A DNA stretch of 64,000 bases from NCBI GenBank assembly GCA_947495975.1, contig CANMBE010000008.1, positions 1 to 64,000 of the forward strand, written 5' to 3'. The notes beneath the pieces are model-generated. The model was not told where the DNA came from. It searched no databases and saw only the letters and a program-made list of their open reading frames with translations. Below are positions 12,361 to 27,110 of the stretch, piece after piece (position 1 is the first letter of the stretch; each line of letters begins with the position of its first letter). This stretch comes from Ignavibacteria bacterium. GTDB taxonomy: Bacteria > Bacteroidota > Ignavibacteria > Kapaibacteriales > Kapaibacteriaceae. The position numbers and the translations under genes are program-made.

Positions 12361-12400
12361 CTCGGTATCTCAATATCTCCGTATCTCCGTATCTCTCCTC
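12361..12400. repeat. Octamer tandem repeat upstream of arginase
   Basis: Four units with a period of eight bases: GGTATCTC, AATATCTC, CGTATCTC, CGTATCTC, then a degenerate CT-rich tail up to the ATG at 12408. It belongs to the same family as the repeats before hprK, patatin, gltD-like and hpnD (core TAWCTC). The 134-base accD-arginase spacer also holds two 10-base palindromes (TCTCATGAGA and ATTGGCCAAT). Confidence 0.75.
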
Positions 12401-14496: not shown

Positions 14497-14524
14497 TTGC
14501 AAGCGCCTTTTTAGGTGACTATAA

Positions 14525-14556
14525 TTAACTCATTACCTCAGTAACTCATTACCTCA
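14525..14556. repeat. Four octamer repeats abutting the hprK start
   Basis: TTAACTCA, TTACCTCA, GTAACTCA, TTACCTCA in perfect eight-base register, the last unit ending at the base before the GTG start of hprK. Same repeat family as at 12361, 20825, 25597 and 27052. There is no Shine-Dalgarno sequence between the repeats and the start codon. Confidence 0.85.
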
Positions 14557-15573
14557 GTGCCTTCCCTCCGCGCTTCCCCTCCCGTCTTCAAAGAATCCAT
14601 CACGGTTCGTGAGTTACTCACGGGCCCTGTGCATGTGCGCGCACTGACAGGGGAGGTGGGTCTCGATAATTCAATTACAGACAAGAGTCTGCACCGTCCT
14701 CAGTTGGCGTTGGCGGGGTACACGGAGTTCTTTACGTATTACCGAGTGCAGCTCTTTGGTAACACGGAGTTCTTTTATTTAAAGTCGCTCTCGCCGGAGC
14801 GTAGGGCCGAAGCATTTGCTCGGATATGCTCTTTCAATGTGCCGGTGATTGTGTGTGCCAATGATCATGTGTTGGAGCCGGACCTTCTGCAGCTCGCTGA
14901 AGAAAAAGGAATTGCTGTTCTTGCAACCCCGTTCGACACTACAAAGACGATCTATCTACTCAGTGAATATCTCGACGATCAGTTTACCGCGCAAATATCA
15001 GTGCACGGTTCGTTTGTAGACGTCTATGGCGTAGGCATGCTCTTTACAGGAAGTAGTGGTATTGGCAAGAGTGAGATTGCACTGGATCTTGTGGAGCGCG
15101 GACATCGCCTTGTTGCAGATGACATTGTGGTGCTCACAAAAAAGCGCGAGAGTATTCTCATGGGCACTGGCACGTCGCTCGTAAAACACTTTATGGAAAT
15201 CCGTGGCCTCGGCGTTATTGATGTGCGAGAAATGTTCGGCATCCGCTCCATACGTTTTCAGAAACGCTGCGAACTGATTGTTGAACTCGAAGTGTATGAT
15301 GAAAAGCGCGAGTATAATCGCACCGGCCTCGATGAGTCAACGATGGACCTTATGGGCGTGGAAATTCCTTCCGTAAAACTCCCAATCTTTCCCGGTAAAA
15401 ACGTTACCGTTATCTCAGAAACAATTGCTCTCAACTATCTGCTGCGCACCTATGGCTACAACGCCTCCAAGGTCTTCTCGGACCGACTTCAAGAAGAAAT
15501 CCAACGCCGACGAAACACCAAGGGCAGCGTTGATCAACGAACGGTTACGTATTTCCAATCGGATGATGAATAG
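14557..15573 (+). CDS. hprK: HPr kinase/phosphorylase
   Basis: A 338-residue protein. The N-terminal domain starts ITVRELL; the catalytic domain has HGSFVDVYGVG (His near 150), the Walker A loop GSSGIGKSE at 165-173, ERGHRLVADDIV and the C-terminal signature MEIRGLGVIDV. In Firmicutes it phosphorylates Ser46 of HPr for carbon control; in many Gram-negatives without a sugar PTS its role is unsettled. No ptsH, ptsI or ptsN is in this window. The start GTG at 14557 follows the octamer repeats directly. The stop (15571-15573) lies inside a TAGGGGGCT motif and overlaps the start of the next gene. Confidence 0.94.
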   Translation: MPSLRASPPVFKESITVRELLTGPVHVRALTGEVGLDNSITDKSLHRPQLALAGYTEFFTYYRVQLFGNTEFFYLKSLSPERRAEAFARICSFNVPVIVCANDHVLEPDLLQLAEEKGIAVLATPFDTTKTIYLLSEYLDDQFTAQISVHGSFVDVYGVGMLFTGSSGIGKSEIALDLVERGHRLVADDIVVLTKKRESILMGTGTSLVKHFMEIRGLGVIDVREMFGIRSIRFQKRCELIVELEVYDEKREYNRTGLDESTMDLMGVEIPSVKLPIFPGKNVTVISETIALNYLLRTYGYNASKVFSDRLQEEIQRRRNTKGSVDQRTVTYFQSDDE

Positions 15574-19813: not shown

Positions 19814-20824
19814 CTACACAATCGGTGGGGCGCCCTGGAAAGCCCCTTTCGCATGATCGTAGCCAGATTGCAGCATGCGTGACACGTCGTTTGACGTAAA
19901 ACTAACGATGCTGTTCGTGAGGTATTCCGTTGGGTTCTGAAATACTTTCAACTTACTTCCAAGCTTTGCGATCTCTGTGTCTAACATGTAGAGATCGGCT
20001 TCAACAACGCTGTGCGTCATCATAGAGAATGCGCGGTCTATCACATCAAGCAGGGCTGGACGTTTCACATGCGATCCAATGCGATCGGTGCCGATGATCC
20101 ACTCTGGCAATGTTACTGGACTACATACATACGTATGCACGCGCAGGTCAGAGGCGGGTGTGCCGGACGCAATAATTGTTCGTGCGTGGTCTACAACCTC
20201 TGTAGATGGTACAACATGGCGAAGACCACCATCGGAAAGACGCGCGCAATCGCCCCCTGATTTTTGCAAACGAATGTAGTCCATGATAAGCGGCGTTACT
20301 GCGCTTGCGAACACAAGATTCTCTACACCCTGATCATTCGTTGCATCGGTGCGCAGATCTTTGTTGGAATACCGACCCGTTACGTAATCTGTATAACCAA
20401 CCCGAACAGGGAAGCCAGATTTTGCAATGTTCGCATGTTTAACAACCGTCTTGTATAGCTGAAGAAGGGGCGCATGGTCCGCCATACCCTTCCACCCGGT
20501 GAATGACCCACCTTGTGCAACAATGCTTTGAGCAAGCTCGCCGGCACCACGCGGGTTCACCAGTGACCGAGGTCCCGTAACCTTTGTCTGCCAAAACACT
20601 TTCAATGATGTACATGCAACACGCAAATCTGCAATGGTTGTTGGCACACCTGAAACATACGTTGTGTTGCTAGAGAGATAGGCAGCATTGAGTGCACCAA
20701 CACTCACTCCAAACATTCCAACAACTGTATCGGCCTGCGGCAATCGCTCAAGTGTTGCAAGCAACGCTCCGGTTTGCCATGCACCACGAATGGAGCCACC
20801 AGAAAAGACGAATATGTGTTTCAT
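19814..20824 (-). CDS. Patatin-like phospholipase family protein
   Basis: A 336-residue protein with the patatin layout: the oxyanion loop GGSIRG (residues 9-14), the nucleophile elbow GVSVG (Ser41) and a later SDGG supplying the dyad Asp. It starts directly at the core fold (MKHIFVFSGG) with no signal peptide, so it is probably a cytosolic or membrane-associated lipid acyl hydrolase. Its ATG lies right after three octamer repeats (20825-20846). It is the last gene of the minus-strand run that includes korA and korB, but a metabolic link is not evident. Confidence 0.85.
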   Translation of the reverse strand: MKHIFVFSGGSIRGAWQTGALLATLERLPQADTVVGMFGVSVGALNAAYLSSNTTYVSGVPTTIADLRVACTSLKVFWQTKVTGPRSLVNPRGAGELAQSIVAQGGSFTGWKGMADHAPLLQLYKTVVKHANIAKSGFPVRVGYTDYVTGRYSNKDLRTDATNDQGVENLVFASAVTPLIMDYIRLQKSGGDCARLSDGGLRHVVPSTEVVDHARTIIASGTPASDLRVHTYVCSPVTLPEWIIGTDRIGSHVKRPALLDVIDRAFSMMTHSVVEADLYMLDTEIAKLGSKLKVFQNPTEYLTNSIVSFTSNDVSRMLQSGYDHAKGAFQGAPPIV

Positions 20825-20846
20825 GGTTACGGAGTTACAGAGTTAC
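20825..20846. repeat. Octamer repeats abutting the patatin start
   Basis: Read on the minus strand: GTAACTCT (20846-20839), GTAACTCC (20838-20831) and GTAACC (20830-20825), then the ATG. Same family as at 14525, 25597 and 27052. The preceding spacer contains a hairpin over the korB stop (20864-20889). Confidence 0.8.
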
Positions 20847-20863
20847 GAGGATGCTGCGAGAGG

Positions 20864-23744: not shown

Positions 23745-25517
23745 TTACGCTCCTGCTTTTGCGGTGTTGTAAGAGAAGAGCTGCATGTCCCAGGCTGCTG
23801 TTGGACATCGCTCTGCGCAGAGTCCGCAGTGAAGACACACGTCTTCGTCCTTTACCATTATTCGCTTCGTTGGCAACAGATCAGATACTAGTAAGTCCTG
23901 CGTTAGATTCTGCGCAGGTGCTTTCAAACGCGATCGTAATTCAGCGTCAGTACCATTTGCTGTAAATGTGATACACGCTGTTGGACAAATGTCAACACAG
24001 GCGTCGCACTCAATGCAGAGTGGCTCGCGAAACACAGTTTGTATATCACAATTCAAACAACGTTCTGCTTCTTTCCATGCTGTTGCAACATCAAAGCCTA
24101 ACTCTACTTCCATCTTTCGATTGCACAGTGTGAGCTTTTTATCTGCCAGAGGAACGATGAAGCGTTGATCGATGGTCACCATGCTATCATAGCTCCACTC
24201 ATGGATACCCATCTTCTGACTCACAAGATTCACCATCGGATGAGGTCGGTCCGTGAGTGCTGTTCCCTTGCAATAGAGATCAATGGAGATTGCTGCTTGA
24301 TGCGCTTGCGCTACCGCGGTGATGATATTCTTTGGACCAAATGCAGCGTCTCCACCAAAGAACACCTTTGGAATGGTTGACTGATACGTCTTTTCATCAA
24401 CGACCGGCATGTCCCATTTGTCGAACTCCATACCAAGATCACGTTCAATCCACGGGAATGAATTTTCTTGACCAATAGCAATGAGTACGTCATCGGCAGG
24501 AATAAAGACGTGGGGTTCACCTGTTGGCACTAACGACCGTTTTCCATTATCGTCATACACAGCATGTACAATCTCGAACATCATACCTGTGAGTCTACCA
24601 TTCTCATGCACAAACGAAACCGGTACATGATTATCGAGAATTGGAATATCCTCGTGCATCGCATCTTCTTTCTCCCACGGCGATGCCTTCATTTCTTTGA
24701 AGGGGCTCCGTACGAGTACCTTTACATGTTCGCCCCCTAAGCGCCTAGCAGTGCGGCAACAATCCATTGCCGTATTACCACCACCTAGGACAATCACGTT
24801 TTTGCCGATTGACGATGTATGCTCATACGCTACACTCTGGAGCCAATCAATACCGATGTGGATGTGGGCTGCAGCTTCGTCTCGTCCAGGTATAGAGAGA
24901 TTCCTTCCACGCGGCGCACCGGTACCAACAAACACAACATCGTAATCTTTATCGATGACGCTTTTTAAGCTATCCACATATGTCAAAAACTGCGTGTGGA
25001 TTCCCATGTTGAGGATAAAGCCAACTTCTTCCTCGAGCACCGCAATGGGGAGTCGGAAAGAAGGGATCTGTGTGCGCATCATTCCACCGCCGGCTGGTTG
25101 TTCATCAAACAGATGAAGTTCATAACCAAGTGGCGCAAGATCTCGAGCAACAGTGAGCGATGCTGGACCGCCCCCTATCAATGCAATCTTTTTTCCATTC
25201 GAAGGGAAGGGGCCTTGTGGGATATACTCCGAAAGGTCGCCCTTGTTATCTGCAGCCACGCGTTTGAGTCGGCATATCGCTACAGGCTCTTCTTCTACGC
25301 GGACCCGTCTGCAGGCCGGCTCGCATGGTCTATCACATGTGCGTCCAAGGACACCCGGGAATACATTTGATTCCCAATTGACCATATATGCTTCGGTGTA
25401 TTTTTCTGCCGCAATGAGGCGGATATACTCTGGGACAGGTGTGTGGGCGGGGCAGGCGTACTGACAATCGACTACCTTGTGATAATATTCAGGATCCTTC
25501 GTGTTCGTAGGCTGCAT
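23745..25517 (-). CDS. GltD-like FAD/NAD(P) oxidoreductase with C-terminal ferredoxin domain
   Basis: About 590 residues. The start is taken as ATG 25517 (MQPTNTKDPEY); a TTG five codons earlier is possible. N-terminal GltD-type cluster cysteines are seen (CQYACPAHTPVPEY, RTCDRPCEPACRR), then an FAD site (IALIGGGPASLTVA) and an NAD(P) site (VIVLGGGNTAMDCCRTARRL). The C-terminus carries two [4Fe-4S] motifs (CIECDACVDICPTAC and CLHCGLCAERCPTAA). No GltB is present, so this is not glutamate synthase. Beside korAB and a NuoE-like gene it most likely moves electrons between NAD(P)H and ferredoxin or the Kor enzyme. That role is inference. Confidence 0.82.
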   Translation of the reverse strand: MQPTNTKDPEYYHKVVDCQYACPAHTPVPEYIRLIAAEKYTEAYMVNWESNVFPGVLGRTCDRPCEPACRRVRVEEEPVAICRLKRVAADNKGDLSEYIPQGPFPSNGKKIALIGGGPASLTVARDLAPLGYELHLFDEQPAGGGMMRTQIPSFRLPIAVLEEEVGFILNMGIHTQFLTYVDSLKSVIDKDYDVVFVGTGAPRGRNLSIPGRDEAAAHIHIGIDWLQSVAYEHTSSIGKNVIVLGGGNTAMDCCRTARRLGGEHVKVLVRSPFKEMKASPWEKEDAMHEDIPILDNHVPVSFVHENGRLTGMMFEIVHAVYDDNGKRSLVPTGEPHVFIPADDVLIAIGQENSFPWIERDLGMEFDKWDMPVVDEKTYQSTIPKVFFGGDAAFGPKNIITAVAQAHQAAISIDLYCKGTALTDRPHPMVNLVSQKMGIHEWSYDSMVTIDQRFIVPLADKKLTLCNRKMEVELGFDVATAWKEAERCLNCDIQTVFREPLCIECDACVDICPTACITFTANGTDAELRSRLKAPAQNLTQDLLVSDLLPTKRIMVKDEDVCLHCGLCAERCPTAAWDMQLFSYNTAKAGA

Positions 25518-25596
25518 TTTTCCGAAACCCAAGGTTGTGTTCGAAACGTCGTGCCGTAAAATCCGTAAAATTCACATAGGAAGCAATGGAGGGTAA

Positions 25597-25628
25597 GAAG
25601 TTACGGGGTTACATGGTTACGGGCTTAC
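25597..25628. repeat. Four octamer repeats in the nuoE-like to gltD-like spacer
   Basis: Minus strand: GTAAGCCC, GTAACCAT, GTAACCCC, GTAACTTC (25628 down to 25597), then TTACCCTCC. Upstream, after seven bases, is a perfect hairpin (25636-25655). The layout matches the hpnC-hpnD spacer at 27052-27110, where the repeats also end with GTAACTT and CCCTC. Confidence 0.85.
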
Positions 25629-25635
25629 GCAGCTA

Positions 25636-25655
25636 GGCAGGGCATGCGCCCTGCC
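25636..25655 (-). other. Perfect hairpin after the NuoE-like gene
   Basis: GGCAGGGC (25636-25643) and GCCCTGCC (25648-25655) form an eight-base-pair GC-rich stem with a four-base loop, six bases past the NuoE-like stop codon. No T-tract follows on the minus strand, so it is not a standard intrinsic terminator; it could protect the 3' end of the upstream message or attenuate transcription. Confidence 0.6.
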
Positions 25656-25661
25656 CTCCAT

Positions 25662-26135
25662 CTACGTGCATGCATCCAACAACGCGTCCATCTGCTCTTT
25701 GCTAGCATTCTCGTGGAACGTTTCGTTGATGGCAATCATTGGTGCACCGCCACACGCGCCCATACATTCAACTTCTTCGAGGGAGAATCTGCTATCATCA
25801 GTCTTTTGGTTGTGGCCTATACCGAGACGATCCTTAGCATGTGCATAGAGTGCTTCGCCCCCTCGCAACATGCAACTGATGTTGGTGCATACTTGCACAT
25901 GGTGCCGGCCCATGGGTTTTTTGAAGTACATGGTGTAGAAGGAAGCCACACCTAGGACGTGCACGTAGGGGAGTTCCATGGCGCGCGCCACTTCTTGCAT
26001 GACGTCTTCTGAGAGCCAGCCCCATTTTTTCTGAGCCATCCACATGACGGGCATGATGGCCGCTTTGGGGTCAGGATATTTTGCTTTGAGAGCTTCAATG
26101 CTCTGCAGTTCATCTGTACTGAATGTGGTGCTCAT
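25662..26135 (-). CDS. NuoE-like thioredoxin-fold [2Fe-2S] protein
   Basis: A 157-residue protein of the NADH dehydrogenase 24-kDa family. The helical N-terminus (LKAKYPDPKAAIMPVMWMAQ) is followed by HVLGVASFYTMYF and the [2Fe-2S] ligands C-x4-C (VCTNISCML) and C-x3-C (VECMGACGGAP). In complex I and in bifurcating hydrogenases this subunit pairs with the flavoprotein NuoF, which is not adjacent here. Its neighbours are the GltD-like flavoprotein and korAB, so it may be an electron-transfer subunit of that system. It may still serve a complex I encoded elsewhere; nuoE as a symbol would be acceptable. Confidence 0.85.
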   Translation of the reverse strand: MSTTFSTDELQSIEALKAKYPDPKAAIMPVMWMAQKKWGWLSEDVMQEVARAMELPYVHVLGVASFYTMYFKKPMGRHHVQVCTNISCMLRGGEALYAHAKDRLGIGHNQKTDDSRFSLEEVECMGACGGAPMIAINETFHENASKEQMDALLDACT

Positions 26136-26152
26136 AGGCTACAAAATACGAT

Positions 26153-27046
26153 TTATCGAAGTCGCTTCACAAACAGCTTGGAACCAAGCCATATTCGAAG
26201 CGCTGTGACGATCTTGTGAACGGCATTTACGCGGATCCGATGTGTAAAAACACGGTAATCCTTTAACTCTATCTTTTCGAGCAAGCGGTAATAGATGGCA
26301 TCCATGATCTCGGCGGCTACCATGGTCATGCGCTCGTCTGGACGCAATAACGCACGCGCCTGATGGTAGCAGTCTCTGGCCCTCTGCGCCTGAAACTGCA
26401 TGAGGTCTACAAACCGCTCATCATAAATCTCGGCCTTCAGATCTTCTTCGGTATACTTAAACCGATCGAGATCTTCTTTTGGAATGTAGATGTAGCCACG
26501 ATCTTTGTCTTGCTTTACATCACGAAGAATGTTCGTGAGCTGCAAGGCATATCCAAGATTGATTGCGTATTGCCGTGTCTCTTCGTGACGGTATCCAAAA
26601 ATTTCAATGCTTATCAAGCCAACAACCGACGCTACACTGTAGCAATATTCCTTAAGCTCTGCAAAGGTCTCGTATCTGCGTTGCACAAGGTCGCGCTCAC
26701 ACCCATCAATAATTGCCAACAAATATTGCTTCGGAATTGCGAATCGTCTCACCACAACACCTAACGCCTCTATCGATGTCTTGCGCGGAACGTTTGAGGG
26801 GGCATACATCGCTTCAATCTCTGCACGCCACCATTGCAGCCGCTGACGTTTCTTGAGGATCACCTCGGGGTCAAGGGAAGGATCCTCATCTACGATGTCA
26901 TCTATTCGACGTGCAAATGCATACACCGTCCTGATTGCAACACGCTCTTCCTTGGGCAAAAACCCAAAAGAGTAGTGGAAGGACGTGCTACCCTTTGTGG
27001 TAAGCACCAATCCATCCTCAGCATCTGTATAGAGGTGCGTAGACAT
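26153..27046 (-). CDS. hpnD: Squalene/phytoene synthase family protein, HpnD-like
   Basis: A 297-residue trans-isoprenyl diphosphate synthase of the head-to-head type. Both Asp-rich motifs are present (RRIDDIVDEDPSLD and LTNILRDVKQDKDRGYIYIP). Together with the adjacent HpnC-like gene it fits the bacterial route farnesyl-PP to presqualene-PP (HpnD) to hydroxysqualene (HpnC) to squalene (HpnE). HpnE is not in the window. Phytoene synthase is the main alternative for this gene alone; the hpnC neighbour argues against it. The ATG at 27046 is five bases after octamer repeats. Confidence 0.82.
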   Translation of the reverse strand: MSTHLYTDAEDGLVLTTKGSTSFHYSFGFLPKEERVAIRTVYAFARRIDDIVDEDPSLDPEVILKKRQRLQWWRAEIEAMYAPSNVPRKTSIEALGVVVRRFAIPKQYLLAIIDGCERDLVQRRYETFAELKEYCYSVASVVGLISIEIFGYRHEETRQYAINLGYALQLTNILRDVKQDKDRGYIYIPKEDLDRFKYTEEDLKAEIYDERFVDLMQFQAQRARDCYHQARALLRPDERMTMVAAEIMDAIYYRLLEKIELKDYRVFTHRIRVNAVHKIVTALRIWLGSKLFVKRLR

Positions 27047-27051
27047 GAGGG

Positions 27052-27083
27052 CAAGTTACGGAGATACGGGGTTGCAGGGTTAC
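27052..27083. repeat. Four octamer repeats between hpnC and hpnD
   Basis: Minus strand: GTAACCCT, GCAACCCC, GTATCTCC, GTAACTTG (27083 down to 27052), then CCCTC and the hpnD ATG. They follow a perfect ten-base-pair inverted repeat (27089-27110) after five bases. Closely similar in order and ending to the element at 25597-25655. Confidence 0.85.
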
Positions 27084-27088
27084 AAGTC

Positions 27089-27110
27089 GCGCGATAGCGT
27101 GCTATCGCGC
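27089..27110. other. Perfect 10-bp inverted repeat over the hpnC stop codon
   Basis: GCGCGATAGC (27089-27098) and GCTATCGCGC (27101-27110) are separated by two bases. The hpnC TAG stop (27102-27104) lies inside the right arm. With a two-base spacer it could act as DNA (a protein site) or open a few pairs to make an RNA hairpin. No T-tract follows. Confidence 0.7.

Follow-up and report, generated by a model that had tools for sequence, protein, structure and literature searches.

Tandem octamer arrays ending in a candidate -7 promoter box before gene starts of a Kapabacteria-type genome

Results

Two spacers with a palindrome and four octamers

The window, that is, the whole stretch of 64,000 nt that was analysed, contains two minus-strand spacers in which a palindrome is followed by four octamer units. 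Spacer 1 is the gap between a nuoE-like and a gltD-like gene, and spacer 2 the gap between hpnC and hpnD, both of the squalene/phytoene synthase family according to Pfam. The names hpnC, hpnD, nuoE and gltD were taken from a first-pass annotation and agree with Pfam; the letters and coordinates it had given for the octamers and palindromes of both spacers were correct on re-reading. The main features are the following.

23745..25517, minus strand: gltD-like pyridine nucleotide-disulphide oxidoreductase with 4Fe-4S domains (Pfam Pyr_redox_2, Fer4_20)
25597..25628, minus strand: octamer array of four units upstream of the gltD-like gene, GTAAGCCC GTAACCAT GTAACCCC GTAACTTC
25636..25655, minus strand: palindrome 1, stem GGCAGGGC/GCCCTGCC, loop GCAT
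26153..27046, minus strand: hpnD-like gene, squalene/phytoene synthase family (Pfam SQS_PSY)
27052..27083, minus strand: octamer array of four units before hpnD, GTAACCCT GCAACCCC GTATCTCC GTAACTTG
27089..27110, minus strand: palindrome 2, stem GCGCGATAGC/GCTATCGCGC, loop AC, member of a dispersed REP-like family

The hpnC stop codon lies inside palindrome 2, the hpnC ORF ending at 27102. No start codon is found within 14 nt downstream of the spacer 1 array, the gltD-like ATG being at 25517. Both spacers had been assigned to one operon, which is doubtful, as a search of the relatives' loci turned up no gltD-like gene next to nuoE; among the hpnD loci compared it was present in the own locus only, and spacer 1 had no ortholog there. 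The bases after nuoE differed in the 10 relatives' loci compared, with L050 and L261 identical in letters. Because of the missing neighbourhood of gltD and nuoE and the differing bases after nuoE, spacer 1 seems to mark the border between groups of genes. A terminal CCCTC, previously counted as part of a common layout, did not hold up either, since the bases after the last unit differ between arrays. An Rfam search of the whole window returned nothing but one tRNA.

Octamer arrays in the genome and the genus

A pattern of three octamers with up to 3 mismatches gave 13 overlapping matches in the 64,000-nt window, compared to 0.71 expected. In the own genome, the exact three-unit pattern was matched 12 times, with overlaps, at 9 places, and the reversed control not at all; window expectation and reversed control together exclude a chance origin of the octamer runs. 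Besides the two spacers, the window holds three more arrays.

12365..12396, plus strand: fourth array, GTATCTCA ATATCTCC GTATCTCC GTATCTCT, with an ATG 11 nt on
14524..14558, plus strand: period-8 array of TTAACTCATTACCTCAG type that continues into the GTG start codon of an ORF at 14557
20823..20854, minus strand: third array, whose terminal GTAACCATG lies where a patatin-like gene begins

With looser patterns, about 28 arrays were catalogued in the own genome, each made up of 2-8 units. Further copies are present genome-wide; most are intergenic, and many point toward the gene downstream. This bears out the first-pass description of a repeated element. Among the matches listed, exact three-unit octamers occurred in 6 of 20 genomes, namely the own one and those of 5 of the 10 congeners, and in none of the 9 from other genera. 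The octamers of this Kapabacteria-type genome are a repeat at genus level. For comparison we assembled 45 relatives' arrays from 40 loci among the matches listed, leaving out contig-end places and some others.

At L140 (own genome, C5, near 138749) and at L206 (G004, C102), a divergent gene pair carries arrays both ways; by recognition of the sequence we take the pair to be a HAD-type hydrolase and a YqeY-like gene. The own genome also contains another repeat, ATCCCGAGC..GCGAGGGACC(TTCTTC), at L141, L143, L161 and L122, directly ahead of three arrays and close to one palindrome.

Arrays end close to start codons

A sense start codon 0-14 nt downstream was found for 17 of the 28 own arrays and 24 of the 45 relatives' arrays, a position expected for 3.8% of random intergenic points. 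Gene starts were simple ORF calls in this count; the L115 array fell outside its centre filter, though an ATG lies 3 nt downstream, and L131, with an ATG 15 nt downstream, was scored as an array without a start. No start codon within 14 nt was seen for 11/28 own and 21/45 relatives' arrays, and the arrays L142 and L114 are antisense or at gene ends.

The last unit resembles a -7 promoter box

In Flavobacterium johnsoniae, a TAHHTTTG box is located 4-5 nt from the RNA start, according to the available part of PMC6847099. The unit nearest the start codon departs from the other units in this direction: TT at unit positions 6-7 was present in 21/41 terminal compared to 2/173 internal units, and 157 of the 173 internal ones carry a C at position 7. 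The difference was seen in the own genome (11/17 terminal vs 2/51 internal) and in the relatives (10/24 vs 0/122). Two of the 41 starts are doubtful GTG calls (L191 on the minus strand; L197 on the plus strand, before tRNA-Glu); when only ATG starts were counted and the hpnD array was omitted, TT remained in 20/38 terminal vs 2/163 internal units, and all subsets of the comparison point the same way. The p-value for the full comparison (9e-16) is indicative and too small, because units and orthologous arrays are non-independent. The remaining 20 of the 41 terminal units are without TT, e.g., GTAACCCCATG.

The two spacer arrays match the TAACTT part of TAHHTTTG, neither with the full TTTG, and matches to its ends (5' TA, 3' TTTG) occur in some terminal units and at some array-free starts. 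Upstream of 25 boxes a -33 TTG element gave no clear peak, with 4/25 at offset 19. The first-pass interpretation stands in part: the copies exist and the hairpin arms differ, but a single element is not supported, and the resemblance of the last octamer to the -7 box of the downstream gene, the main point, had been missed. The putative boxes of the two spacers are:

27051..27058, minus strand: putative -7 promoter box TAACTTGC, with the ATG of hpnD (27046) 4 nt downstream
25596..25603, minus strand: putative weak -7 box TAACTTCT, placed by analogy with other arrays

The box occurs at array-free starts and before tRNA genes

In 344 kb of sequence, TA[ACT][CT]TT ended 4-7 nt before 20 of 256 sampled starts, where 0.85 were expected, and at 16 of 249 array-free starts; same-sized bins at 60-63 nt and 100-103 nt held 3 and 0, respectively. 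The strict TAHHTTTG was found at the leaderless position of 7/256 starts (0.11 expected) and therefore marks one promoter class, not a rule for all genes, so the majority of genes here use another or a poorer box. In the window alone, the box pattern TAHYTTTGNNNNATG was matched once compared to 0.29 expected, which is uninformative.

In the 30 nt before the own tRNA genes, TA[ACT][ACT]TT was present at 6/7 (0.03 expected per gene) and the strict TAHHTTTG at 4/7; one gene has no box there. A -7 box before untranslated RNA genes, as would mark a promoter, is thus found at the own tRNA genes. Arrays, too, stand before tRNA genes in relatives. Both G004 and G010 have one directly ahead of tRNA-Arg, that of G010 with GTAATTCT as its end and lacking TT at unit positions 6-7, and in G004 another adjoins the TATATTTG box of tRNA-Glu. 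As tRNA genes are untranslated, boxes and arrays in front of them favour transcription over translation.

This bears on a reading available from the literature. Direct repeats of the TAACTGA type are known from Beggiatoaceae, Cyanobacteria and some Bacteroidetes, and a post-transcriptional regulator has been proposed for them (MacGregor, 2015; available part of PMC4679880). By analogy with this published proposal, the octamers would be mRNA binding sites of a translational regulator, which would suit array ends that are often near start codons. Three relatives' arrays and 6/7 own tRNA boxes nevertheless precede tRNA genes, and the terminal units depart from the internal ones toward a -7 box; we consider a translational regulator highly improbable.

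The box appears older than the arrays

We compared 42 orthologous starts of four genes (HAD-type hydrolase, recO, thrS and hpnD) from up to 11 congeneric genomes; the names thrS, recO and HAD are our assignments from recognition of the sequences. A box was located 3-6 nt before the start in 41/42 cases, the exception being recO of G007, and for hpnD all 11 genomes of the genus (11/11) have a TAACTT box at this distance from the start codon. Octamers stacked upstream of the box at these four genes were seen only in the own genome (G000), G002 and G004, which also have the most similar proteins; in G002 the HAD gene is without octamers, and recO has a single one, adjoining the box. The other congeners have a single box at the four genes, with arrays elsewhere in G006, G009 and G010. 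Because relatives keep the single box at the four genes, the box is probably older there, the arrays having developed upstream of it. When DNA was compared, an orthologue was found for 7/28 own arrays in the relatives' sample of 45, and the unit number varies between orthologous arrays (2 and 17 at recO, 4 and 5 at thrS).

Upstream of thrS in G001 and G010 (L255, L256), a palindromic repeat, GGATCCCCGCTTTCGCGGGGATGACG, lies just before the single box, with no array. Relatives of hpnD were also encountered in records titled Melioribacter, Bradyrhizobiaceae, Armatimonadetes or Gallionella (L039, L047, L083 and L090); the title of L039 is probably wrong, as its hpnD is 77% identical to that of the window.

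Probable near-leaderless promoters with tandem copies of the box

Judged from sequence comparison, each start-proximal array is quite likely a near-leaderless promoter, in which the last unit provides the -7 box and inactive tandem copies lie upstream of it. The last octamer, G-TA(A/T)C-TT.., would serve as a -7 box of the TAHHTTTG type, and transcription would start at the start codon or a few bases before it, giving a near-leaderless mRNA. The upstream octamers may be tandem copies of an 8-bp stretch, gained and lost probably by replication slippage. The inner units are presumably inactive as boxes, carrying C where T would be needed and providing no extra starts. The gltD-like gene would have a weak box, with about 75 nt of leader predicted ahead of its ATG. 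In the hpnC-hpnD spacer, the palindrome at the end of hpnC would be followed by a promoter of hpnD's own, and the palindromes in general may be independent REP-type repeats that settle beside or inside arrays.

The upstream units could have a function of their own. As incomplete -7 boxes, in which TA and G are kept and TTT is lost, they might form a tunable landing strip that holds RNA polymerase close to the single working box, with a unit number set by slippage setting expression in turn. We regard this extension as unlikely; if it were true, the TAAC-type repeats of Beggiatoaceae and Cyanobacteria would also be promoter devices.

Palindromes and arrays meet as separate repeats

The palindrome 2 family (GCGATAGCNNGCTATCGC) occupies 14 own-genome sites at up to 2 mismatches, and none in the reversed control. 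Palindrome 1 was rejected as a repeat family: the genome holds no close second copy of it, and one further site, with 2 mismatches, is followed by a terminator-like T tract. At 8/14 own sites of the palindrome 2 family, two octamer units lie within 60 nt, compared to 85 of 4500 random non-coding points; L124 and L128 precede a single box, and L117, L119 and L122 have neither array nor box.

The same layout of palindrome and octamers in two spacers had suggested one element of fixed layout, for which we found no support. A perfect palindrome with arms of at least 8 bp within 70 nt upstream was present at 5/28 own arrays compared to 5/103 array-free intergenic starts (p = 0.04), and at 3/26 when the two given spacers were removed (p = 0.20); among the sampled relatives it was 8/45 arrays. 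By eye, perfect or imperfect palindromes stand at about ten own arrays. A scan of 344 kb for the full layout found 3/12 arrays of at least 3 units after a perfect palindrome of at least 7 bp (reversed control 0/3), which shows rarity and not enrichment, because two of the three are the given spacers and the third comes from a stretch picked knowing the site.

The observation that the hairpin letters differ and the layout is kept extends to orthologous spacers: between hpnC and hpnD, three congeners have three palindromes, GCGCGATAGC.. in the own genome, GGTCACGCC.. in G004 (letters of record L042) and GGGCGAGGC.. in G002 (L050), each followed by octamers and a box. These arm changes are swaps of unrelated sequences and not compensatory covariation.

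The G004 palindrome gave 46 pattern matches, with both strands of near-symmetric sites counted. Among 28 distinct sites (30 loci of the 46 matches), an octamer unit begins no more than 12 nt past the CTAC end in sense at 23 and in antisense at one; on the other side the numbers are 23 sense and 5 antisense. In an earlier count, 6.5% of random positions at these loci were near an octamer unit. The G004 palindrome therefore lies inside arrays in one orientation, and at L290 a 39-bp block of palindrome plus octamer is itself tandemly repeated. Such flanking by sense units, the L290 block and the 8/14 own family sites with an array within 60 nt are what one would expect if palindrome and octamers were one composite mobile element moving as a unit. 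The majority of own arrays, however, have no perfect palindrome, orthologous arrays carry different palindromes or none depending on the species, and in relatives the box occurs without array or palindrome, so that we judge a composite element to be quite improbable. In our view the palindromes are repeats distinct from the arrays, and the two often come together, in G004 in one orientation.

Next to the G004 palindromes at L202, L206, L282 and L290, the tag-strand palindrome often comes straight after TTAC (TTAC|GTAG), a tetramer that the array units supply. TTAC before GTAG is possibly an insertion target.

The palindromes might also act in RNA, terminating transcription of the gene before them or stabilising its 3' end, which would be compatible with a promoter function of the arrays. 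The two window palindromes are predicted to fold into hairpins at the end of the upstream gene with -23.4 and -17.4 kcal/mol, at modest z-scores of -1.4 and -2.0. No T tract follows either of them, however, and a terminator scan called neither; in the palindrome 2 family, L117 sits after a separate T-tract terminator and L113 between divergent genes. A role in RNA is thus conceivable, if on the unlikely side, for palindromes next to arrays that we read as near-leaderless promoters.

Discussion

The arrays belong with start-proximal tandem repeats, here with a promoter reading. Like the TAACTGA repeats described in the available part of PMC4679880, they consist of short TAAC tandem units, mainly intergenic and sense, which end a few nt before starts, follow no evident pattern of gene function and are sporadically distributed. 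Unlike the TAACTGA repeats, which have a period of 7, the octamers have a period of 8 (GTAACYYY), their last unit shifts toward a -7 box, and arrays also stand before tRNA genes. Repeats of the TAAC type before starts had a proposed function; relatives with and without arrays, together with the tRNA genes, point to a transcriptional origin.

Compared to the Bacteroidota -7 element, as far as it is covered by the available part of PMC6847099, many terminal octamers and the relatives' box match wholly or partly and lie 3-6 nt from the start codon. Tandem copies upstream distinguish the arrays from this element; a -33 element was not seen here and is weak in F. johnsoniae, too. In the part of the open literature searched, with subscription papers mostly outside it, we found no report of -7 box arrays. 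Among the matches listed, literature on Kapabacteria with promoters, transcription start sites or repeats yielded nothing useful, and the octamer letters gave chance-like matches.

The palindromes resemble GTAG-tagged REPs, which are associated with RAYT transposases (available parts of PMC3733652 and PMC8266576). Both window copies are extragenic palindromes of 20-22 bp, within the 20-40 bp of such REPs. The tag GTAG (CTAC on the array strand) was found at own L126 and L127 and the G002 copies examined, and CTAC at 24/28 G004 palindromes; unlike these, both window palindromes are without GTAG. Y1_Tnp genes, putative RAYTs, are present in 10/10 congeners, and a search for Y1_Tnp in the own genome gave 0 matches. 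Palindrome 2 has only 14 sites, and palindrome 1 no close second copy. Palindromes in one orientation inside promoter-like repeats bear on how palindromes choose their sites.

Finally, heptamers similar to TACTAGT/TAACTAG were seen after nuoE at L261 and L050 and at L213/L035 (G002). At L213 they are mixed with octamers, and they resemble the TAACTGA type of the literature.
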